64,000 nt of DNA from Gimesia maris. Its GTDB lineage: Bacteria; Planctomycetota; Planctomycetia; Planctomycetales; Planctomycetaceae. This document shows positions 47,478 to 58,261 of the stretch, one piece after another. The notes below the pieces were generated by a model, which saw only the letters and a program-made list of their open reading frames with translations, did not search any database and had not been told where the DNA came from. Position 1 is the stretch's first letter; each line of letters starts with the position of its first letter. The stretch lies in the NCBI RefSeq assembly GCF_008298035.1, contig NZ_CP042910.1, positions 682,001-746,000 on the forward strand, given 5' to 3'. The position numbers were made by a program, and so were the translations under genes.

Positions 47478-48695
47478 ATGCGACGTGTATTTCTGGGAAA
47501 TTATGACTTTGAACATCAACTGGCCAGCGAAGTGTATGCAGCGTCGGGGGGAGGCACGCCCGCATTGAATCTGCAACTGGCCTGCTGCTGGATCAGCGTG
47601 GCGGCAGACGGCGACCAGATCTATTTGCCCGGTTCAATTACTTCTGAATTTATGATAGATTTGAAGACAGCGGGGCTGCCGGAGGTGGAGTGGATCTCAG
47701 CATGGCCTCGTCACGAAGAAGCGGCTCGAAGCGAGTTCGTTCCCTGGGGCTGGTCGGAAGCGGTTGCAAAACTGGCAAACGCGCAGGGATTCACCGCGAA
47801 TACTCCTGATCTGGCTGCCGTGAAAACGGTCAATTCCCGGTCGTTTTCATTTGCATGTGAAAGAGAATGGGGACTCTCGCTGCCTGGAAGTCGTCGGGTG
47901 GAAAATATGGAGGAGCTGGAAGCAGCGGTTGCAGAGCTGCCGTTGCAGCAGGCTCGAGAGCCAGCCTGGGTACTCAAGGCAAATTTCAGCATGTCAGCCC
48001 GTGAGCGGATGCTGGCACGGGGAACCGGCGTGGAAAATCCGGTCAGGGACTGGGCAAAAAAACGATTTGCGTACCAGCAGCCACTGTTTCTGGAACCGTG
48101 GGTGCAGCGCAGCGCGGAAGCCGGACTGCAGTTTGAGATACCGCAGCAGGGGGACCCCGAATTTCTGGGGATCGCAGTATTGTTATGTGATGACCGCGGC
48201 CAGTATCGCGGCAGTCGGATCTGTATCGATGCGCAGACGCGGGAAACCTGGCAGCCTGCAATAGAAGTGGGGCACCGCGTGGCATTACGTGTGCAGCAGG
48301 CGGGTTACTTCGGGCCGCTGGGAATCGATGCGATGCAGTATCGGGATGATCGGGGAGAGTTGCAGTGGCGTCCGGTTCAGGATGTCAACGCCCGCTATAC
48401 CATGGGACGACTGGCGCTGGGATTTACACGCCTCTTAAATGCGGGACAGGTGGCAAGCTGGCTGCATTTCCCCTGGAAAGAGTCGTATGGTCAGCCGTTT
48501 TCAAAGTGGTTAAGATGTGTTGCCGACGCACAGCAGTCGGGCACACGCTGGATTGCGACGTCCCCTGACCAGATTAACGGTCAAACGTTACATCTTGTGA
48601 ATGGTTTACTGATTTCTGAAACAACGGAAGACCTGTATCGGGCGGAAGCGACCCTGATGCGGGCGGTTTCTGTATTGGCAGAGACCAGTTGTTGA
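47478..48695 (+). CDS. ATP-grasp-like protein, function unknown
   Basis: A 405-residue cytosolic protein without a clear family match. The order of elements resembles an ATP-grasp enzyme: an N-terminal region with strand-helix alternation, a central ANFSMSARERML segment where the family's lysine strand would be, LFLEPWVQRSAEAGLQFEI, and an end GPLGIDAMQYRDDRGELQWRP followed by QDVNARYTMG, reminiscent of the metal-binding E/D-x-N-x-R motif. If so, it would ligate a carboxylate to an amine. It is 36 bp upstream of a flippase-like gene, suggesting a joint role in glycan or peptide-modified envelope assembly. Confidence 0.5.
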   Translation: MRRVFLGNYDFEHQLASEVYAASGGGTPALNLQLACCWISVAADGDQIYLPGSITSEFMIDLKTAGLPEVEWISAWPRHEEAARSEFVPWGWSEAVAKLANAQGFTANTPDLAAVKTVNSRSFSFACEREWGLSLPGSRRVENMEELEAAVAELPLQQAREPAWVLKANFSMSARERMLARGTGVENPVRDWAKKRFAYQQPLFLEPWVQRSAEAGLQFEIPQQGDPEFLGIAVLLCDDRGQYRGSRICIDAQTRETWQPAIEVGHRVALRVQQAGYFGPLGIDAMQYRDDRGELQWRPVQDVNARYTMGRLALGFTRLLNAGQVASWLHFPWKESYGQPFSKWLRCVADAQQSGTRWIATSPDQINGQTLHLVNGLLISETTEDLYRAEATLMRAVSVLAETSC

Positions 48696-48731: not shown

Positions 48732-50156
48732 ATGACCGAACAGCGGGAACTTCAACCACAACGACGCAGTTGGCCGCGTCGTATGCTCAACCGAATGGAA
48801 GTCAATCGTGCGGTATTCTATGCGCTGTTGAGCCGGGGCTGGCAGTTTGTCTCCGGCCCTGTCACGATGCTGCTGATCATCGCGTTTTTCTCCAGTGAGT
48901 TGCAGGGATACTATTATACTTTCGGTGCGCTGATTGCTTTGCAGACCTTTGTCGAGATGGGCATGCAGGTCGTCACACTCTATCTGGCCAGTCATGAATG
49001 GTCGAAACTGAAAATTGACGAACAGGGGGCGTTAAGCGGTGATGCGGATGCGCTCTCACGGATACGCAGCCTGGCGTCACTGGTATTGAAGTGGTACAGC
49101 GTAGCCGGACTGCTGTTTGTCGGCGGTATTGGAATGGCCGGCTATTATTTCTTTTCGTCTCAGCCGGCAGGTAGTGTGGACTGGCAGCTCCCCTGGCTGT
49201 GTGTGGCCGGGCTGACGGCACTGAGTCTGATTGTGACGCCCTGTCTCACTCTGCTGGATGGTTGCGACCAGGTTGCGGTCACCAATCGTTATCGCGCTTT
49301 CCAGAGTATTACAGGGACACTGGTCGCCTGGCTGGTCATTTCCAGCGGAGGCGGGATCTGGACCTGTGTTGCGATTTGTGCTGTGCGGCTGTTCTGGGAA
49401 CTGTGGCTGATTGTTATTCGCTATCGACGATTTTTTACGTCGTTGTTACCACCGCGTTCAGGGGCGCTGGTCAGCTGGTCGGAAGAAGTCTGGCCTTTGC
49501 AATGGAAGCTGGCAGTGCAGGCGATGGCGACGTACTTCACCAGCGCGTTTGTCATCCCGTTGATGTTTGAATATCAGGGCCCCGAAGTCGCCGGCCGCCT
49601 GGGACTGACCTGGTCGGCCTTGATGACATTGCAACTGGCCGCCTATTCCTGGCTGCTGGCGCGGGCACCGTTGTTTGGTTCGCTGGTATCACAGAATAAT
49701 ATTCCCGAACTGAACCGCGTCTTTCGCCGATTGTCACAGGTTTCCACCATGGTTCTACTGGCGGGAGGAACTTTGTTTTGCCTGATCGTCTGGGGACTGC
49801 AACTGGTGCAAGGCATGGAGCTACCAGCAGGCTGGGACAGGCTGGAACCGGTCTGGTACCTGATTCAGAAGCTGCAGCAACGGATCCTGCCACTCTACCC
49901 GACTGTGCTGCTGACGTTGGCCATTGTTCCCATTCATATCTCCCAGTGTGTGATGGCGTATATTCGTCCGTTTAAACAGGAACCATTTCTGTTTTTGAAT
50001 ACGCTGACTCAGCTGATCACGGGGCTGCTGGTCTGGTACCTGGGAAAAACCTACGGGCCGGTGGGCGCAGGCTGGGGGTTTCTCGTGGCGGGTTATCTAC
50101 TGACGATCCCCGGATTTCTACTCATCTTACGACGATTTGTTTCTCAGCGAACATAA
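48732..50156 (+). CDS. oligosaccharide flippase-like polytopic membrane protein
   Basis: A 474-residue protein with about twelve hydrophobic helices, a basic N-terminal tail (RRSWPRRML), and the pattern of the MVF/polysaccharide transporter (Wzx-like) superfamily: ALLSRGWQFVSGPVTMLLI, then alternating helices, and a C-terminal YGPVGAGWGFLVAGY segment. It probably moves a lipid-linked glycan across the inner membrane, or is a diverged member with another substrate. It follows the ATP-grasp-like gene closely; no glycosyltransferase is adjacent, so the product is unknown. Confidence 0.72.
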   Translation: MTEQRELQPQRRSWPRRMLNRMEVNRAVFYALLSRGWQFVSGPVTMLLIIAFFSSELQGYYYTFGALIALQTFVEMGMQVVTLYLASHEWSKLKIDEQGALSGDADALSRIRSLASLVLKWYSVAGLLFVGGIGMAGYYFFSSQPAGSVDWQLPWLCVAGLTALSLIVTPCLTLLDGCDQVAVTNRYRAFQSITGTLVAWLVISSGGGIWTCVAICAVRLFWELWLIVIRYRRFFTSLLPPRSGALVSWSEEVWPLQWKLAVQAMATYFTSAFVIPLMFEYQGPEVAGRLGLTWSALMTLQLAAYSWLLARAPLFGSLVSQNNIPELNRVFRRLSQVSTMVLLAGGTLFCLIVWGLQLVQGMELPAGWDRLEPVWYLIQKLQQRILPLYPTVLLTLAIVPIHISQCVMAYIRPFKQEPFLFLNTLTQLITGLLVWYLGKTYGPVGAGWGFLVAGYLLTIPGFLLILRRFVSQRT

Positions 50157-50217
50157 GGAATCTTGCGCTCGCGCCTGACTGAAGAGTCTGTGTGCCGCAA
50201 TTTCGTCAAGAAAAATG

Positions 50218-50246
50218 TTGACAGTCTGAAATCCTGATTTTACTAT
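50218..50246 (+). promoter_or_regulatory. sigma-70 promoter of the STN-protein cluster
   Basis: TTGACA (50218-50223) and TACTAT (50241-50246) are separated by exactly 17 bases, a near-consensus housekeeping promoter, giving a leader of about 210 nt before the first gene at 50464. Confidence 0.7.
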
Positions 50247-50343
50247 CAGTAGATATTCATTCATTCATTGCATACTCGTTTTTATTGTCTGATTTCATTT
50301 CTTTTCTCAATCAGGTTCAACGCCCGGACAAGTTTCTTTCGCG

Positions 50344-50360
50344 CTGCTGGTTTCCAGCAG
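50344..50360 (+). other. hairpin in leader of STN-protein cluster
   Basis: CTGCTGG and CCAGCAG pair perfectly around TTT in the middle of the untranslated leader. It could stabilise the message or act in attenuation; no T run follows, so it is not a terminator. Confidence 0.45.
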
Positions 50361-50463
50361 ATACGGGCCTCTTCAACGAGTAGTGAGTTTCCGGCACTGA
50401 TGTAGTCTATCTCTGTTTTGCAGGATCGATGCCACCTTCGTGTATTGAAAAGGAGTTTTCATA

Positions 50464-51348
50464 ATGCAATGGTTTTTGAAGCGAAATCACCTGTTCGTCC
50501 TGTTACTGTGCATCTCAACGGGCTGGGTATTAATGACGGTCAGTGCGGAAGTAGCACAGAACACCAGGGCCGGAAATCCCGATGCTTCGTCTGAGGCGGA
50601 TCTCGATATCGTAGAGCAAGATGTCTTTGTCAGTTCGCAGAAACATCAATCAACCCTGCAGACTCAAAAGCAGACAGCGGATTCGGGTATCAAGAGTATT
50701 CAGCTCTTCTATCCGCCGTTGACAAAACACGCACAGACAATCCAGAGGGAGCTCAATGCTGAAACAAAAGCGGACTTTTCCGACACCCCTTTAACTGAAG
50801 TAACAGGTTTCTTTCAGAACCAGCATGGGATTAATATTTTTCTGGACGCTCTGGCATTAGAGCAAGTTGGTCTCACAGCAAAAGAGCCTGTGAATGTCTC
50901 GCTGAGTGGAATTAAACTCATGTCCGCACTCGACATCATTCTGAGACCAATGGGGCTGGATTATGTCATCGATCAGGAAGTGTTGAAGATTACGACGATT
51001 GAAAAAGCGAATCGTACTCTGACAGTACGGATTTATCCGATTGCCGATTTAGGCAGTTCACCAGAGGAATTCGCGGCACTTGAAAACGTGATTCGCAATA
51101 TCTGTCTGCCACCTTCATCGATGCGCCAAAAAACTTATCCGGTCGATGATCTGGTCATTGGCGATTCCGGTTTGTCAACCGGAAAATTATCCGTGCCAGA
51201 TTCAAGTCGCAGTATTTCCATCGTTCCCCAGTGCCAGGCACTGGTGGTGAATGATACAGATCGAGTGCACATCAAAATATCGGAGTTATTGAATCAGCTC
51301 AGGCAGGTCCGCAAAGCTCAGACCAGCCTGAAATCTGATGCAAAGTGA
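50464..51348 (+). CDS. secreted STN (secretin N0-like) domain protein, paralogue 1
   Basis: A 294-residue exported protein; AAGGAG precedes the ATG and a signal peptide ends near VSAEV (about 29). After a variable linker comes the shared core: FYPPLTK, DFSDTPLTEVTGFF, then IKLMSALDIILRPMGLDYVI and LKITT, the pattern of an STN/N0 domain of secretins and TonB receptors. A second beta-alpha unit (RIYPIADL, ISIVPQCQALVVND, LLNQLRQVR) resembles the secretin N1 fold. No secretin barrel is present. It is the most divergent of four tandem copies and lacks the LGDWK-type tryptophan block. Confidence 0.75.
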   Translation: MQWFLKRNHLFVLLLCISTGWVLMTVSAEVAQNTRAGNPDASSEADLDIVEQDVFVSSQKHQSTLQTQKQTADSGIKSIQLFYPPLTKHAQTIQRELNAETKADFSDTPLTEVTGFFQNQHGINIFLDALALEQVGLTAKEPVNVSLSGIKLMSALDIILRPMGLDYVIDQEVLKITTIEKANRTLTVRIYPIADLGSSPEEFAALENVIRNICLPPSSMRQKTYPVDDLVIGDSGLSTGKLSVPDSSRSISIVPQCQALVVNDTDRVHIKISELLNQLRQVRKAQTSLKSDAK

Positions 51349-51385
51349 TTCTCAGTTGTCACATATTCAATACGGGGGACTGGTT

Positions 51386-52273
51386 ATGAGCTGGCTTTTG
51401 AAAAAGAAGATTGTTGCTGCCCTATTATGTGTTCTGGCTGTCGGAAGCAGCATGCTGGTGGCGACTGCGGAAGTGAAGAAAAAAACGGTTGCTTCCGAAG
51501 CAGAGAAACCTGTCGCCCAGAATATGATCGCATTTAAAGAAGCGGCACTATCGCAGCAGCAGCAGAAGAAAAAAACGCAGCAGATCTTTTATCCGGCGTT
51601 AACAAAACGTGAGCTGAAAATTCAGGAAGCGCTAGCGGAAGAAACCGATTGTGATTTTCCCGATCTGCCTCTCTCTGAAATTATGGCGTTATTTTCAGAG
51701 AGACATGGTATTCCCATTCTCATCTCAGGTAATGATCTGGGTGAGGAAGGTTTAACGCCCGATGAGCCTGTAAACCTCCATGTGAAAAGTATCACGCTCA
51801 GTGATGCGTTGGATCTCATTCTGGAACCCATGGGTTTGACTTACCTTGTTGAACATGGAGTCCTGAAGATCACGACATCCATGAAAGCCAGTGATAAACT
51901 GACTTCACGTGTGTATCCTGTCGGCGATCTTTGCCGGACTGTCGAAGATTATCTCACGCTGGAATCGGCGCTCAGAAATGCAGACCTGGGTGACTGGCGG
52001 GCGCGGAAAACCGGTTGTGCGTCGGAAAAGACCAACGATCAGCCACAACAGTCCGGCGGACAGGCACCCGCGGGAGGAGGTTTTTTCAATATTCCCGATG
52101 GCAATTTCAAGGGAGGGGAAAGTGTCGACCCCCTGCTTTATGAAGACGGTCATGGCGGAACGATTACGATTGTGCAGCAATGTCGTGCATTGGTCATCTC
52201 GCAGACGTATCATGCGCACAAAGTCATCGTTGATCTGTTAACACAAATCAGAGAAGCCCGTGCCAGTGAATAG
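51386..52273 (+). CDS. secreted STN (secretin N0-like) domain protein, paralogue 2
   Basis: A 295-residue exported protein; ATG 51386 is chosen because GGGGGA sits upstream and the signal peptide (MSWLLKKKIVAALLC) then starts the chain. Core order: FYPALTKRE, DFPDLPLSEIMALFSERHG, ITLSDALDLILEPMGLTYLV with VLKITT, SRVYPVGDLC, LGDWR, a Gly/Gln-rich spacer, and the end GTITIVQQCRALVISQTYHA then LLTQIREAR. It is 37 bp after paralogue 1. The STN-like unit binds partner proteins in secretins and TonB receptors; the partner here is unknown. Confidence 0.77.
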   Translation: MSWLLKKKIVAALLCVLAVGSSMLVATAEVKKKTVASEAEKPVAQNMIAFKEAALSQQQQKKKTQQIFYPALTKRELKIQEALAEETDCDFPDLPLSEIMALFSERHGIPILISGNDLGEEGLTPDEPVNLHVKSITLSDALDLILEPMGLTYLVEHGVLKITTSMKASDKLTSRVYPVGDLCRTVEDYLTLESALRNADLGDWRARKTGCASEKTNDQPQQSGGQAPAGGGFFNIPDGNFKGGESVDPLLYEDGHGGTITIVQQCRALVISQTYHAHKVIVDLLTQIREARASE

Positions 52274-52355
52274 ACGACTCGACTCAAACCGGTTGCAAAT
52301 ATACTTTGACTCAGAATTCAATTAAATCAAAAGTTGACGACAGCAGGAGAAAGTG

Positions 52356-53267
52356 ATGAAACGGAAAACCGATAGCGGTAGCTGGAGACAAACAATTACG
52401 TTTACCCTGTTGAGCTGCCTGGTGGGGGCAGGTTTTCTCATCACGGCAAACGCGGAAGAGAAGCCGAAATCAAAAGAGACATCAGCGAAAAAACCGACGG
52501 TAAACGCGATTTCGAAAACGATTGCGCCTGCAGAACAAACAAAAGCGAAGGCGTCAAAACCGGTCTTCTATCCGGCGCTCACCGCCCGCGAACAGACATT
52601 GGAAGTGGCGCTGAAGATGAATACCGACGCCGACTTCGTGGAATCAACGCTGCAGGATGTGATCACCTATTACAGCGACAGACATAAAGTGCCCATTGTG
52701 ATTCAGACAAAAGACCTGGAAAATAATCTGGGAATCACTCCTGAAGAACCCATTGATGCCCATTTTTCTGAAATCAGCCTGAGCGATGCGTTGCTGCAGA
52801 TTTTGGATCCACTGGATCTGACCTTTATCGTCGATCGAGGACTGATTCAGGTGCTTTCCAAAGAGTCGGCTGCCCGCACATTCAAAACCAGGGTCTACCC
52901 CGTCGCCGATCTGTGCATCATTGATGAAGATTACCTGGTCCTGGGCGCCTCCATTCAGAATGCGAACCTGGGAGACTGGAAACCCGTTCGCCTCAGTACC
53001 ACATTAAGTAATCCAAAATCTGAACATGGTCAGAAGGGAAGTGGTGGTAGAGGATATTTTAACGTGCAGGGAGCATTAGGAGGTGGCCTGGGTGGAGGTT
53101 TTGGCGGTGGCGGTGGATCACTGGCTGATTACACGAATGAACCGGGGGGGACGATCTCGGTAGTGCAACAGTCACATGCGCTGGTGATCAGTCAGACCTG
53201 GCACGCGCACAATGCGATTGTTGAATTATTGACACAACTACGTCAGGCACAACAGGACAGTGAATAA
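52356..53267 (+). CDS. secreted STN (secretin N0-like) domain protein, paralogue 3
   Basis: A 303-residue exported protein; ATG 52356 has AGGAGA upstream (ATG 52353 reading one codon earlier is GTG). The signal peptide contains FTLLSCLVGAGFLITANAE. The core follows paralogue 2: FYPALTARE, ISLSDALLQILDPLDLTFIV, TRVYPVADLC, LGDWK, then GTISVVQQSHALVISQTWHA and LLTQLRQAQ. The spacer between the two units is an unusual glycine-rich tract (GGGLGGGFGGGGG). A Lys/Ala-rich linker follows the signal peptide. It is 82 bp after paralogue 2. Confidence 0.77.
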   Translation: MKRKTDSGSWRQTITFTLLSCLVGAGFLITANAEEKPKSKETSAKKPTVNAISKTIAPAEQTKAKASKPVFYPALTAREQTLEVALKMNTDADFVESTLQDVITYYSDRHKVPIVIQTKDLENNLGITPEEPIDAHFSEISLSDALLQILDPLDLTFIVDRGLIQVLSKESAARTFKTRVYPVADLCIIDEDYLVLGASIQNANLGDWKPVRLSTTLSNPKSEHGQKGSGGRGYFNVQGALGGGLGGGFGGGGGSLADYTNEPGGTISVVQQSHALVISQTWHAHNAIVELLTQLRQAQQDSE

Positions 53268-53334
53268 TCTGAACCTTCAAAGAATCAAACTGAAAAAGGT
53301 TTCAGTTGATTGAAGCGGAAATGAAGGAGTCTCG

Positions 53335-54135
53335 ATGAGCAGAAACCCAAAATATGGTCGATCTGGTATCCTGGCAGTGGGATTGGGGACGCTGTTAATC
53401 GGGGTGTTGACACTGCCGGTTCAGGCAGAAGAAAAAGCAGTGGTGCCGGATAAGAAAACCAAACCACCCGCTAGGACCGTGCAGGCTCAGCCCGTCTTTT
53501 ATCCCGCGTTAACAGAGCGGGAAAAACTGATCGACAGCATGTTGAAGAGGGATACTCATGCCAATTTCCCCAAAGTCCCGCTCTATGAAACAATGGAATA
53601 TTTTTCCCAGTTGACTAATATTCCGATTCTCCTGCAGGACAAATATCTGGAAGAGGCCGGCGTCACCCGGGAGGAAATGATCGAGGTCAAATTCACAAAT
53701 CAATCCCTGCAAAATGAGCTGGACTATATCCTGGACCCTCTTGATCTGACGTATGTGGTCGACAAGGAAATGGTTCTGATAACTACAAAGGAACGAGCGG
53801 CACGAATATTAAAGACGCGGGTTTATCCCGTGGGCGATTTATGTCAATCCAGTCCCGATGGTTATGCCGCACTGGAAATGGTGATTCGCAACGCGCGCCT
53901 CGGAGAGTGGAAACCAGGCGGTATTGACCAGCTGGCCCCCATTTATGGTTCCTCAGGCCAGGATGCCCGGGTCTATAACTTCCAGTTTAAAGGGGGGACC
54001 ATTTCGATACATGAACCGAGTCAATCATTGGTGATCAGCCAGACTTATCATGCTCATGAAGCGATTGTGAAACTGTTACAGGATCTGAGACAAGCCCGGG
54101 CATTGCAGCAGAAATCGGCGGACCGCAGCTTCTGA
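53335..54135 (+). CDS. secreted STN (secretin N0-like) domain protein, paralogue 4
   Basis: A 266-residue exported protein with AAGGAG five bases before ATG; the signal peptide ends near LPVQAEE. It is the shortest paralogue, with a compact linker. Core order: FYPALTERE, NFPKVPLYETMEYFSQ, the STN strand-helix unit ending DLTYVVDKEMVLITT, TRVYPVGDLC, LGEWK, then GTISIHEPSQSLVISQTYHA and LLQDLRQAR. It ends the four-gene unit; the dyad terminator lies 13 bp after its stop. All four differ most in linker and spacer, as expected for proteins binding different partners. Confidence 0.77.
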   Translation: MSRNPKYGRSGILAVGLGTLLIGVLTLPVQAEEKAVVPDKKTKPPARTVQAQPVFYPALTEREKLIDSMLKRDTHANFPKVPLYETMEYFSQLTNIPILLQDKYLEEAGVTREEMIEVKFTNQSLQNELDYILDPLDLTYVVDKEMVLITTKERAARILKTRVYPVGDLCQSSPDGYAALEMVIRNARLGEWKPGGIDQLAPIYGSSGQDARVYNFQFKGGTISIHEPSQSLVISQTYHAHEAIVKLLQDLRQARALQQKSADRSF

Positions 54136-54147
54136 AAGCCGACGCAT

Positions 54148-54190
54148 ATAAAATGGAGCAGGCCGAGGGGAGCAGCCCGCCCCATTTTAT
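54148..54190. terminator. bidirectional terminator dyad
   Basis: ATAAAATGG and CCATTTTAT are exact complements, with a G+C-rich, partly pairing interior. It lies between the convergent STN-protein unit and the ThuA/cytochrome gene; A and T tracts on both sides fit use in both directions. Confidence 0.65.
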
Positions 54191-54195
54191 GCTCG

Positions 54196-57100
54196 TCACT
54201 TACCGCCATTTGGTGTACGGCTCATAATATAGTTGAAGAGGTCCTTCACTTCCTGATCACTCATATTTTTCGTCAGGCCGTCGGGCATCAGTGACAGATC
54301 CAGTGCCTTGAGGATTTCGATCTCGTCTTTATTGATGAGCACGGTCTGTCCTTTGACATCCCGCAATGTGAGTGTCTTGGTGGTCTGCTCATCAATGAGA
54401 CCTGTCACCGTCCGACCGTCGTCAGTGACGACCAGGAAGTTGGTGAATTCTTCCCGAATCGCGGCACTCGGATCCACAACTGCCAGCAGCATGAAGTCCA
54501 GGTTGTCGCGTTCGTAACCTGTCAGTTTAGGGCCGGCTTTACCTCCTTCGCCGTACAGCGTATGACAGACGGCACACGTTTTATTGAACAGGACTTTTCC
54601 GGCTGAGAATTCCCCGCCACCCGCTTTGACCAGTTCCGCTACGCGTTTCATTTCCTGCTGTTTTTCTGCAGGGGTCGAACCGCGGACTTTGCCCCAGTGC
54701 TTTTTAATACTGGCTTTGATCTCCGGGTCATCATGCAGTGACATCTGCTGCACCACATCCAGGGGAATCGTATTGGCCTTGATTCGCCACGCGTCGACTT
54801 GCGCGAGGAACTGCTTGCTCCACGCTTTGCGACTGGCTAATACCCGCTGCGCCGTGCCGCGGACATCGTGTTCGTCGAGCAGTGTGCTGTGATAACGCCC
54901 CAGAATACTGTTGCCGATACTCGGGTTTTCATAATTCATCAGAGCCTGCAGTGCGACCCGTTTCAACGAATGTGTGTCGGCTCCCGATGACGAGAGAATC
55001 GCCGTCAAAGGGCCCACAGCGTCTTTCACTTTCAACTGACCCAGGATTTCGATATAAGTCAGACGAGTCGGACGGTCTGCATTTTTATCAGCAACAATTT
55101 TCAAGGCGCGCTGGGTCGCTTCCTTGTCTCCCAGCCGTAAGGCTAATGCGAGGTCCGATTCTCCCAGGTTCTTCTGGTATTCGACCAGTTCTTTACTGAG
55201 TTCTTCAGGCAGGTTGTCGATCTTCTGGCCGCGGAACGCTTCCAGCATGCCCACCATCAGTTTTTCTTTATGCTGATCCGAGGGGGCCAGCTTCAACAGT
55301 TTGGCGCACATGGCGTAGTTTTCATCGCCGCCCGCCATTGCATAGCGCTGCATGATGCGTTCAAGAATGTAATCCTGAACCATTTTGACTTTCCAGAAGT
55401 CCGGTTTTGAAAACAGTTGGAGCACCAGTTCCCGGTCGGAAGTCGCTTTGCTCTCGATCGCCCACCATAACAGCAGGGGAATATGCAGGTCCTGCAGATC
55501 TTCTTCCCGCTGCAGAAGTTCGGCGGTAATCGCGAGACCGGATTCCGCGGGAAGTCGTTTGGCCGTCGATGCCAGCTGTGAACGTACTTCGGCGTAAGGT
55601 TCCGTTTTCGCCAGGCCAACCAGTGACGCGGTCAGCTTTTTCGAAGTCGTATGCGAATCGCCGAGCAGACGGATCGTCCAGCGACGTATGTGTTCATCCC
55701 GGTGTCCCAGCAGCTCCAGCGCCAGTTCTTTGTTGAACGCACCTAATTGATTCAACGCCCAGAGTGCTTCCAGGCAGCGATCATCGTTCTCGTCTTTGGC
55801 AATTGCCAGCAGTGCGGGAACCATCGAAGTGTCGCCACGTTCGCCAATCACCTGCACGGCTTTCTGACGGAACCATTTGTTTTTGTGGCCCATCGTTTCG
55901 ATCAGTTCCGCATTGGTCTGTTTGGAAAGATCGAACGGTTTGAGGGGCTTATACTCGGTTGGTTTGAGACGATAGATACGTCCGCTGGTTTTGTGCCAGT
56001 TGTCGCGAGGGTCGACGTGTGTCAGACGACTGTCGTACCAGTCGGCGAGGTACACGCTGCCATCAGGGCCCACCTTGATATCAACAGGGCGGAACCAGCG
56101 GTCCTGCGTCATCACGATGGGGGGCATATCTTCTGTTCGAAAAGTGGATGTATCTGGAATCAGATTGCTGGCCATCACGCGGTTATGCAGTGAGTTCGCT
56201 GCGAAGACGGCACCGTTGTATTTGGGCGGGAAAGCCCCCCCTTCATAAATGGAGAAGGTCTGGCTGAAACGTTCCTGGTAACCTTTGTGCCGCATATGTT
56301 CGTAATATCCGAAGGCGTATGAATTCGTCAGCGGACCATGTTTGCCCCAGTTCTTATGAGCATATCCGCCCTGGGCATAATGCATGCCGCGGGTACTTCC
56401 GTTATTCGTACCGGAGAAGACGCGGCCTTTGGAATCGATTTCCACACTGAAGGTATTTCCGCCCCCTTCTGCGTAGATTTCGAAAATTTTGGTTTCAGGG
56501 TGATAACGCCAGATCATCTGACCTTTGAAGTGCAGGTTCTTCGTGACAGCGGAACTGACGGTCCCGGTGGTCGTACTGCCGTTCGCGCCGTACAGCCAGC
56601 CATCGGGGCCCCACTTGATGCTGTTGGCAACAGAATGCGTGTCTTCCAGGCCGAAGCCGGAGAGATGGACTTCAGGATCGCCGTCGGGAATGTCATCGCC
56701 GTCGGCATCGGGATAGAACAGCAGGTAAGGCGGATTCAAGACCCAGATTCCGCCTTTGCCGACCGTGACCGCGGAGACAATATTCAGACCGGTAATCACG
56801 TCTTTGATTTTATCGAACGTCCCATCGCCGTCGGTGTCTTCGAGTACCGATATCTTGTCGGCTCCTTTGAAGTGATTAGGCGGTGCGGGGGGCACCTTAT
56901 CGAAGACCGCCCGCAGGTACTGGTCGTATTTGACGACTTTCAAGCCAGCGGGAAACGGGTACTGCAGGTACTGCACGACCCACATTCGCCCGCGATGGTC
57001 AAAGCTGAGATACAGGGGCTGCATGACTTCGGGTTCCGCAGCGATACTTTCCATTTCGAAGTCTTTGTGAACCTGAAACAGTTTGACCGCCTGTTCGGGG

Positions 57101-58059
57101 GGAGTCGGATCGGATTCATCGCCGACTTCACCTTTGCCTTTGAAGGCTTTCATGACTTTGTCGACCTGCTTGTTGGCAGCGACATTCTTCTTGAAGCGAT
57201 CACGGGTGATCTTTCCGGCGACATCCACCTGGGGTGGTTGTTTTTTGAGACACCAGTAGATGGCATTCACCAGCGTGTGTGTGAACGTGTTGATTTTGAA
57301 ATCGCTCGGGTGTCCGAGTGAAGTATAGAATACCAGAGATTTTTGATAGCGGTTGGTCCAGGCAACGGGCATGTGGACCGGCTGCCCTTCCACGTTGGAC
57401 AGGCCGATTAATAATGTCTTCGTGGAACTTTTGAGGTTCGTGCTTTTATACATCGAACCTTCACTGCGAAAATATTTATTGCGGACCGTCGCCATGATCG
57501 GGTCCTGCTCGGCCCGCAGCTGGGTGGTCACATCGGTTGGTGTTTTGTTATTAAAGTCGCCCGCGTATTCGCCCCCCAGTACTTCCGTGTCGAAGTTTTT
57601 CCACTCGACATAACCTTTCTTCGGTTCCCCTTTACTGAGCGAGAAGCCGTGACTCGAAGTACGAATGGCGACCAGCGGCTTGCCGGAATCAAGATAATCG
57701 CGAAGCAGTTTCATCTGGGCGGCCGGTAATGTTTTTCGACGTACACTCAGAAACAGCAGGTCTGCCTCTTTAAGAGCTTTCAGGCCAGGGAACGAATTCG
57801 GATCATCTTTGTCGGCGAACACAAATTCGGTACGAAATCCGAGTGGCTGCAGATGTTCTTTGGCAAAAGCAGGCAAGCTTTCTGCCGTTTTATAACCTTC
57901 CTCCCCGATCACAAACAGAATCAGAGGCTGGTCAGCGGGAGTCGCTGCTTTTGGGGAATCGGTCTGCTCTTCGCCGGGGAGCGGGAAAACGACCAGACTG
58001 CAGAAACCGAGAAAGACAGACAGTGAGAGCACGTGCTTCAAAATCATTCTATTGAGCAT
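54196..58059 (-). CDS. ThuA / PVC-type dehydrogenase / HEAT / cytochrome c protein
   Basis: A 1287-residue exported protein; ATG 58059 is used (a GTG lies nine bases upstream). After a signal peptide (to about 32) come a ThuA-like domain at about 45-275 (LSVRRKTLP, AIRTSSHGFSL, TSLGHPSDFK), a sugar/PQQ-dehydrogenase-like propeller at about 325-690 (YLSFDHRGRMWVVQYLQYP, VLEDTDGDGTFDK, VYLADWYDSR), HEAT repeats to about 1100, and a C-terminal cytochrome c with CAVCH encoded at 54562-54576. It would oxidise a sugar-like compound in the periplasm and pass electrons to the heme. The end matches the gene at 2-1231, and the ThuA domain matches that of 41199-43259. Confidence 0.92.
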   Translation of the reverse strand: MLNRMILKHVLSLSVFLGFCSLVVFPLPGEEQTDSPKAATPADQPLILFVIGEEGYKTAESLPAFAKEHLQPLGFRTEFVFADKDDPNSFPGLKALKEADLLFLSVRRKTLPAAQMKLLRDYLDSGKPLVAIRTSSHGFSLSKGEPKKGYVEWKNFDTEVLGGEYAGDFNNKTPTDVTTQLRAEQDPIMATVRNKYFRSEGSMYKSTNLKSSTKTLLIGLSNVEGQPVHMPVAWTNRYQKSLVFYTSLGHPSDFKINTFTHTLVNAIYWCLKKQPPQVDVAGKITRDRFKKNVAANKQVDKVMKAFKGKGEVGDESDPTPPEQAVKLFQVHKDFEMESIAAEPEVMQPLYLSFDHRGRMWVVQYLQYPFPAGLKVVKYDQYLRAVFDKVPPAPPNHFKGADKISVLEDTDGDGTFDKIKDVITGLNIVSAVTVGKGGIWVLNPPYLLFYPDADGDDIPDGDPEVHLSGFGLEDTHSVANSIKWGPDGWLYGANGSTTTGTVSSAVTKNLHFKGQMIWRYHPETKIFEIYAEGGGNTFSVEIDSKGRVFSGTNNGSTRGMHYAQGGYAHKNWGKHGPLTNSYAFGYYEHMRHKGYQERFSQTFSIYEGGAFPPKYNGAVFAANSLHNRVMASNLIPDTSTFRTEDMPPIVMTQDRWFRPVDIKVGPDGSVYLADWYDSRLTHVDPRDNWHKTSGRIYRLKPTEYKPLKPFDLSKQTNAELIETMGHKNKWFRQKAVQVIGERGDTSMVPALLAIAKDENDDRCLEALWALNQLGAFNKELALELLGHRDEHIRRWTIRLLGDSHTTSKKLTASLVGLAKTEPYAEVRSQLASTAKRLPAESGLAITAELLQREEDLQDLHIPLLLWWAIESKATSDRELVLQLFSKPDFWKVKMVQDYILERIMQRYAMAGGDENYAMCAKLLKLAPSDQHKEKLMVGMLEAFRGQKIDNLPEELSKELVEYQKNLGESDLALALRLGDKEATQRALKIVADKNADRPTRLTYIEILGQLKVKDAVGPLTAILSSSGADTHSLKRVALQALMNYENPSIGNSILGRYHSTLLDEHDVRGTAQRVLASRKAWSKQFLAQVDAWRIKANTIPLDVVQQMSLHDDPEIKASIKKHWGKVRGSTPAEKQQEMKRVAELVKAGGGEFSAGKVLFNKTCAVCHTLYGEGGKAGPKLTGYERDNLDFMLLAVVDPSAAIREEFTNFLVVTDDGRTVTGLIDEQTTKTLTLRDVKGQTVLINKDEIEILKALDLSLMPDGLTKNMSDQEVKDLFNYIMSRTPNGGK

Positions 58060-58261
58060 GGGGACCACTTCTTGGCGAGGTAAAACTAAAGGAAATTAAA
58101 TAATGGTGGTTTTTCATCATAACAGGTCGATAAAGGCCCTGTCACCCGTCAAATGTGTGTTTTTTTGAGAAGAAGAAACCAGTCGGGTTCATGATAATGA
58201 CCGGAGAAATATATTTATCATAAGTGCTATTGATTTAAAGGTTTAATGTCGCATTTGAGAA

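Follow-up and report, generated by a model that had tools for sequence, protein, structure and literature searches.

N0 and N1 domains are usually read as anchor points of secretion pores. Described proteins built around N0 without a barrel include (i) DotD, from the type IVB system of Legionella, for which a periplasmic ring is proposed (PMC2951367), and (ii) the VirB7 protein XAC2622 of Xanthomonas, presented as a lone-N0 protein whose oligomerisation involves both its N0 and a flexible segment at its N-terminus (PMC3093366). The window analysed here, a stretch of 64,000 nucleotides corresponding to positions 682001-746000 of the single-contig 7.8 Mb genome of the marine planctomycete Gimesia maris (named same-genus records are likewise Gimesia), contains four consecutive genes encoding exported proteins that almost certainly display an N0-N1 fold and are devoid of a recognizable pore domain. 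The best overall explanation, held tentatively, is that these proteins form a periplasmic scaffold, likely together with a protein of the same genome that combines a VWA domain with N0 (VWA-N0 protein).

Organization of the gene cluster

The four open reading frames lie in a row on the + strand, separated by gaps of 37, 82 and 67 bases, and are assigned to three classes, A, B and C, according to the genus-wide tree described below (aa, amino acids).

50464..51348, + strand: gene 1, 294 aa, class A; signal peptide, linker, N0 and N1, without a glycine-rich spacer
51386..52273, + strand: gene 2, 295 aa, class B; signal peptide and linker, followed by the FYPALT box, N0, and N1 with an insert
52356..53267, + strand: gene 3, 303 aa, class C; plan as in its siblings, glycine-rich insert with YFNV
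53335..54135, + strand: gene 4, 266 aa, second class C copy

The reading frame of gene 2 is open from 51338, and gene 3 has an alternative GTG start at 52353. An earlier note, made from the sequence alone, had described four exported paralogues, and both attributes hold: all six pairs are homologous by BLASTP (E 9e-67 to 9e-28, 28-41% identity), and each N-terminus, judged by eye, displays a Sec-type signal peptide ending in A-x-A followed by E. A crude signal-peptide pattern matches 53 of the 57 cluster proteins gathered in the genus, setting the cut too late in several, including genes 1 and 2. A simple lipobox pattern is absent from all four window proteins, and its matches in four of the 57 genus proteins are chance-like and fall inside the signal peptide. 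Gene 1 departs from the shared motifs put forward in the earlier note (FYPPLT, RIYPIADLG and LVVNDTDRVH); the glycine-rich spacer attributed to the third gene is present but not confined to it, a weaker one occurring in gene 2.

Fold and domain architecture

The AlphaFold2 model of the gene 2 protein, computed from 23 sequences (mean predicted local distance difference test, pLDDT, 74; predicted template modelling score, pTM, 0.59), comprises two well-predicted parts, residues 71-210 (block pLDDT 80-95) and 251-295 (83-92), with a disordered segment between them. The second domain comprises a strand (173-178), a helix (186-198), the insert, two strands (258-263 and 268-273) and a final helix (275-294), a strand-helix-[insert]-strand-strand-helix succession that is, in the model, the KH-like order of N1. 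Two features previously taken as separate, the TRVYPVxDLC box and the final LVISQTYHA unit, are predicted to be the two halves of this single N1, placed around the low-confidence insert.

51584..51637, + strand: gene 2 FYPALT-RE box and next helix (residues 67-84), from the model and conservation
51638..51895, + strand: gene 2 N0 (residues 85-170), block pLDDT 89-95, with matches in the PDB
51896..51994, + strand: gene 2 N1, first half, strand and helix (residues 171-203), from the model
51995..52153, + strand: gene 2 N1, disordered insert (residues 204-256) containing GGGFFNIP, pLDDT under 50 at 211-247
52154..52264, + strand: gene 2 N1, second half, two strands and helix (residues 257-293), from the model

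Structural comparison agrees with the secretin-type N0 and N1 that had been proposed. Every one of the 12 Foldseek matches that the model obtains at E <= 0.001 is a secretin or a complex containing one, the best PDB matches being the N-terminal domains of GspD, XcpQ, PilQ and EscC. With VIA-align, N0 alone superposes on GspD, XcpQ and anti-sigma STN-like domains with a root-mean-square deviation (rmsd) of 1.7-2.3 Å over 70-74 residues, and comparison with the N0-N1 pair of EscC gives Z 10.8 (rmsd 10.2 over 149 residues). A profile built from the 23 relatives matches Vibrio cholerae PilQ (6w6m, E 5.7e-4) across N0 and the start of N1; the gene 2 sequence alone has no PDB match at E <= 1. In Pfam, STN matches gene 2 only, at 21.4 bits against a cut-off of 28.4, and Secretin_N appears in gene 4 at E 0.17; NCBIfam returned chance-level or far sub-threshold matches, including the Amuc_1098 family at E 0.004 and 0.042 (15.3 and 11.9 bits; cut-off 750). 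The fold was modelled for gene 2 and assigned to the other three proteins through 39-42% identity.

None of the four proteins has a Pfam match at E <= 1 to the secretin barrel (PF00263), the sequences stopping after N1, or to the plug and 22-strand barrel of TonB receptors, for which 266-303 aa are too few to form the barrel. The absence of a barrel stated in the earlier note is thereby supported, and neither an unrelated fold nor a secretin barrel, the two results it had named as refuting, appeared. Pfam also gave no match in the four proteins to a sigma or anti-sigma part with membrane anchor of the FecR/PupR type, or to an ExbD/TolR-like domain.

Relationship to the VWA-N0 protein and the secretin of the same genome

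Four other proteins of the genome are related to the cluster: a 1692-aa secretin, a 467-aa secretin-like protein, the 920-aa VWA-N0 protein and a 684-aa zinc-ribbon protein. The VWA-N0 protein, which is conserved and exported, comprises an N-terminal VWA domain (E 5.6e-18), a coiled region and a C-terminal N0 followed by only the start of N1, and occurs as one copy per genome among the Gimesia matches listed. The 1692-aa protein displays a WAELT box, N0, a YPVADL-containing N1 and then the secretin domain (Pfam E 5.7e-21). Boxes matching FYPALT-RE sit ahead of N0 in both proteins, WAELTKRR in the secretin and WTALTERR in the VWA-N0 protein.

The N0 domains of the cluster are close to that of the VWA-N0 protein, with BLASTP identities of 59% over 111 aa for gene 2 and 54% over 106 aa for gene 1; gene 2 is closer to this N0 than to its siblings (35-39%, nearly full length and so over another stretch). 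An N0 tree of 103 rows, including 36 of the 57 cluster proteins, and 110 columns places the 36 Gimesia cluster rows and eight VWA rows in one group (Shimodaira-Hasegawa-like approximate likelihood ratio test, SH-aLRT, 95), the VWA rows nesting within it (SH-aLRT 96) and the secretin rows lying elsewhere. With only 110 columns, the tree provides good but not strong evidence of kinship between the two kinds of N0. A tail feature is also shared: all 10 long N0 proteins scanned contain VWA_3, with N0 near residue 640-840 and a glycine-rich stretch behind it, and nine of the 10 tails carry F-[SAN]-[VLI], the tenth (L138) displaying FPSV. A similar FFxV-like motif occurs in the spacers of 17 of 22 class B and nine of 20 class C proteins, and in none of the 15 of class A.

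Several features of these relatives are recorded for completeness. The secretin (L046, 9177-14255, - strand) has a long repeat-rich N-terminal region before its N0-N1, and a gene for a PPIC-type isomerase lies just upstream. The 467-aa protein (L047, 7514-8917, - strand) carries N0 and N1 ahead of a short C-terminus that resembles that of secretins; it has no Pfam secretin match and is perhaps a reduced secretin, while the zinc-ribbon protein (L048, 6400-8454, + strand) has a weak N0-like match close to its C-terminus. At L045 (3604-7808, + strand), a TPR-like gene encoding 389 aa comes after the VWA-N0 gene; in the lineage of L135-L137 the two seem to be fused into a protein of about 1300 aa, with a similar stretch in L136.

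Conservation across Gimesia

By profile search, 15 of the 16 other same-genus genomes contain the tandem cluster, the one exception being a 74% complete assembly of 590 contigs (G015). In the genus-wide tree, the 57 proteins, two to five per genome, fall into three classes, A with 15 rows (support 100/100), B with 22 (only 82/86) and C with 20 (100/99), with gene 1 in A, gene 2 in B, and genes 3 and 4 in C. All three classes are held by 13 of 16 genomes (G004 is without A and C, G010 without A and G014 without B), and the order is largely preserved: 15 of the 16 end the row with class C, and 13 begin it with class A. The varied set envisaged in the earlier note is thus retained as three classes genus-wide, which fits a division of labour. 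The second gene of G014 joins a class B front to a class C body, as read from its sequence, and looks like the product of unequal recombination.

Mean identity within a class is 50-74% in the N0 and N1 regions, 22-29% in the linker and 19-23% in the insert; positions conserved in at least 90% of the 57 proteins include, in gene 2 numbering, F68, P70, L72, R175, Y177, P178, D181, H278 and R289. The ratio of nonsynonymous to synonymous substitution rates (dN/dS) is 0.10-0.35 for the cluster (11 gene pairs, three closest species), compared with 0.02-0.20 for flanking genes. The secretin gives 0.08-0.09 and the VWA-N0 protein 0.06-0.07, from two of these three species. Two flanking genes approach the cluster, at 47478 (0.16-0.20) and 58262 (0.15, one close species compared), and gene 3 against G011 (0.10) lies within the flank range; many comparisons with remoter species are saturated. 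Judged by these ratios, the cluster is under purifying, relaxed selection. Positive selection was considered and dropped on the 0.10-0.35 values.

Expression signals and genomic context

Two signals enclose the row of genes.

50218..50246, + strand: sigma70-like promoter, TTGACA-17-TACTAT, by consensus match and genus conservation
54141..54197, + strand: terminator-like hairpin between convergent genes, -23.0 kcal/mol, which the simple scan did not list

The near-consensus promoter reported earlier is upheld by conservation: all 12 upstream regions that were aligned (from 12 of the 16 cluster-holding genomes) retain TTGACA-17-TAnnAT without gaps, with a second conserved stretch just 3' of it; the promoter scan is by itself no evidence (one site against 5.8 expected from shuffling). 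The closing terminator also stood up, its hairpin exceeding chance (z -2.96, 0 of 200 shuffles, 54140-54200). The leader hairpin did not, being at shuffle level (z -0.09, 85 of 200 shuffles) and aligning only in the four closest species. Rfam gave no match at E <= 0.1 in 49900-54600.

Pfam revealed no secretion, type IV secretion, sigma or anti-sigma gene among nine neighbouring window proteins, four of which had no match. A 1290-aa ThuA/DUF7133/HEAT/cytochrome c gene adjoins the cluster in 16 of 16 genomes, and a 474-aa gene at 48732 flanks it in 14 of 16, G002 and G003 differing there. The 1290-aa protein (window 54196-58068, - strand) is 85-97% identical genus-wide, in full or in part, beside the fast-changing cluster.

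Relatives beyond the genus

At least 226 of 294 genomes in a phylum sample match the profile at E <= 1e-8, as do 61 of 61 in a family sample, among the matches listed; long proteins, secretins and VWA proteins among them, account for most of these. Of 15 family loci with short frames or weak copies, 13, in 10 genomes, encode N0-N1 proteins of 246-470 aa; the remaining two comprise a piece of a VWA-type protein (L155) and a locus without an intact match (L152). No secretin domain was found in the four of those 13 loci scanned with Pfam, and the short N0-N1 proteins of other family members are, from their sequences, apparently barrel-less. The survey for tandem copies suggested in the earlier note found, besides the Gimesia clusters, two free N0-N1 genes side by side in Schlesneria-type records and, in the lineage of L106 and L114, N0-N1 doubled within proteins, the genes standing in rows of two and three.

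Fusions occur in some lineages. An N0-N1 protein with a C-terminal ExbD/TolR domain is encoded at L144 (7708-9024, + strand; 29.5 bits against a Pfam cut-off of 25.4), and N0-N1 proteins with C-terminal ExbD/TolR-like domains just below the cut-off at L070 (9601-10632, + strand; 23.6 bits) and L071 (9586-10626, + strand; 24.2 bits). The model of the L070 protein weakly matches TolR (5by4, E 0.16, probability 0.84) and ExbD (8pek, E 0.24, probability 0.90). In genome G172, an extracytoplasmic function (ECF) sigma factor is fused to a C-terminal N0-N1 (L109, 8920-11007, - strand) beside a free N0-N1 gene; from its sequence, this fusion is a possible trans-envelope signalling protein.

In the neighbour survey proposed earlier, no consistent partner emerged among 29 loci (four Gimesia, two Schlesneria-type and 23 others, not all with a free N0-N1 gene). 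Eleven protein families are common to different loci, each in two to four, and none is present in most. CobW-type GTPase genes (L146 and L154) and 3-keto-disaccharide hydrolase genes (L149 and L151) adjoin free N0-N1 genes.

Proposed role and alternative explanations

In the proposed mechanism, the operon would yield soluble exported periplasmic proteins, each comprising one N0 and one N1 and no pore. Both domains would serve as docking or oligomerisation surfaces, aided by the flexible linker and the FYPALT box before N0, so that the cluster proteins assemble into a periplasmic scaffold, with one another and with the VWA-N0 protein as the most likely further partner, possibly as the mixed ring that the earlier note had suggested alongside binding to different partners; the variable insert would determine what each class recruits. 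The role as docking or oligomerising subunits, likely with the VWA-N0 protein, is proposed by analogy with DotD and VirB7 XAC2622 and is plausible at somewhat less than even chance. The VWA-N0 protein is the first candidate partner because of the N0 kinship and the shared tail, the choice of partner being the least certain step.

Several observations weigh against this proposal. Whole-model template modelling scores against secretins are low (0.19-0.28, Foldseek), and N0 and N1 jointly superpose only at about 10 Å, which suggests that the domain arrangement differs or is ill predicted. The N0 fold also resembles baseplate hubs of phages and injection systems (Z 8-10); the family is therefore assigned from the N0-N1 order together with the sequence profile, and not from the fold by itself. 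The N0 tree derives from 110 columns and a single short search without bootstrap; class A has no tail motif in common with the VWA-N0 protein; the VWA gene is distant from the cluster; and common descent of the N0 domains does not prove contact.

The N0 and N1 domains of known secretins form rings, and free N0-N1 proteins could dock on, cap or mix into rings of the 1692-aa secretin or the 467-aa protein. The former presents the same order of box, N0 and N1 ahead of its secretin domain, and the four proteins match it by BLASTP at E 8e-24, 1e-17, 1e-13 and 7e-11. However, comparison of G000 with nine other species gives 87-98% identity for its N0 and N1, whereas the cluster halves, over all pairs in a class and so not strictly matched to that figure, average the 50-74% given above; this tells somewhat against a ring made jointly with that secretin. 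Since the cluster N0 also groups apart from that of the secretin and the genes are distant, an accessory role of this kind is unlikely. Binding to the STN-like domains of trans-envelope regulators, by which free N0-N1 proteins would tune ECF sigma factors, takes its model from TonB-dependent transducers, whose STN domains act in ECF sigma control. The gene pair of G172 favours it, and N0 fits STN-like domains of anti-sigma proteins no less closely than it fits secretin N0 (Z 10.7 with rmsd 1.8 over 74 residues for 4m0n; Z 9.2 for PupR); yet the nine window neighbours scanned include no sigma or anti-sigma gene, and STN domains of transducers are not normally known to carry N1, which makes a signalling role rather improbable.

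The three ExbD/TolR-type fusions would accord with an energised system in which N0-N1 proteins couple inner-membrane force generators to periplasmic partners, and the L070 model points the same way, but its structural matches are weak and the domain is missing from all four window proteins and from the second protein of L072, leaving this explanation improbable for the Gimesia proteins. That the genes are decaying or neutral duplicates without distinct function is very unlikely: copy number varies from two to five, G014 holds the apparent fusion and dN/dS exceeds that of most flanking genes, but all computable ratios are well under 1, the promoter is kept and the cluster persists in nearly every genome of the genus. 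A wider proposal, itself improbable, extends the scaffold to the phylum: planctomycete N0-N1 would constitute a free, multi-class kit for pore-less periplasmic assembly around the phylum-typical VWA-N0 protein, coupled in some lineages to ExbD/TolR or ECF sigma factors, with tandem subunits occurring as separate genes in Gimesia and as doubled N0-N1-N0-N1 proteins in another lineage.

If such multi-copy pore-less use is widespread, many STN or secretin N-domain labels in planctomycetes are uninformative about secretion, and an unstudied periplasmic assembly is indicated in these bacteria, described as having an unusually large periplasm (PMC11131199). The VWA-N0 link and the ExbD/TolR-like fusions supply concrete candidate partners.

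Comparison with known systems

Among open-licence PMC papers on planctomycete secretins, STN/N0 domains, crateriform structures and Gimesia, none was found to describe these proteins; for P. limnophila, an essential locus comprising type II secretion genes and planctomycete-specific genes is reported (PMC10632474). The four proteins resemble the secretins GspD, XcpQ, PilQ and EscC in export, in the succession of N0 and N1 and as best fold matches, but differ in the missing barrel, the long disordered insert in N1, the tandem paralogues and the N0/N1 arrangement of the model. The N0 half shares its fold with the STN domains of FpvA, PupA and PupR (PF07660); compared with such transducers and anti-sigma proteins, the window proteins have neither a receptor barrel nor a transmembrane anti-sigma part, and possess N1. 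The VWA-N0 protein offers the closest N0 and a glycine-rich/FxV tail, but a VWA domain and a coiled region precede its N0, no more than the beginning of N1 is present, and the Gimesia genomes listed have it as a single copy.

DotD, as described, is likewise a barrel-less, stand-alone N0-like domain with a flexible N-terminal segment, but a lipoprotein consisting of N0 alone, whereas the Gimesia proteins have no lipobox and an added N1 (PMC2951367). Its structure (3ady) aligns with the gene 2 model at Z 7.8, and its type IV context is unmatched among the nine window neighbours scanned. VirB7 XAC2622 shares a barrel-less N0 and a flexible N-terminal stretch with the window proteins, and differs in being described as a lipoprotein and VirB9 binder without N1 (PMC3093366). 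By their sequences, the four proteins are not secretins, because the barrel is absent, nor TonB receptors, nor DotD-type lipoproteins, because the lipobox is absent and N1 is extra; by analogy, they most likely function like a pore-less secretin N-domain or a DotD/VirB7-N0 subunit.

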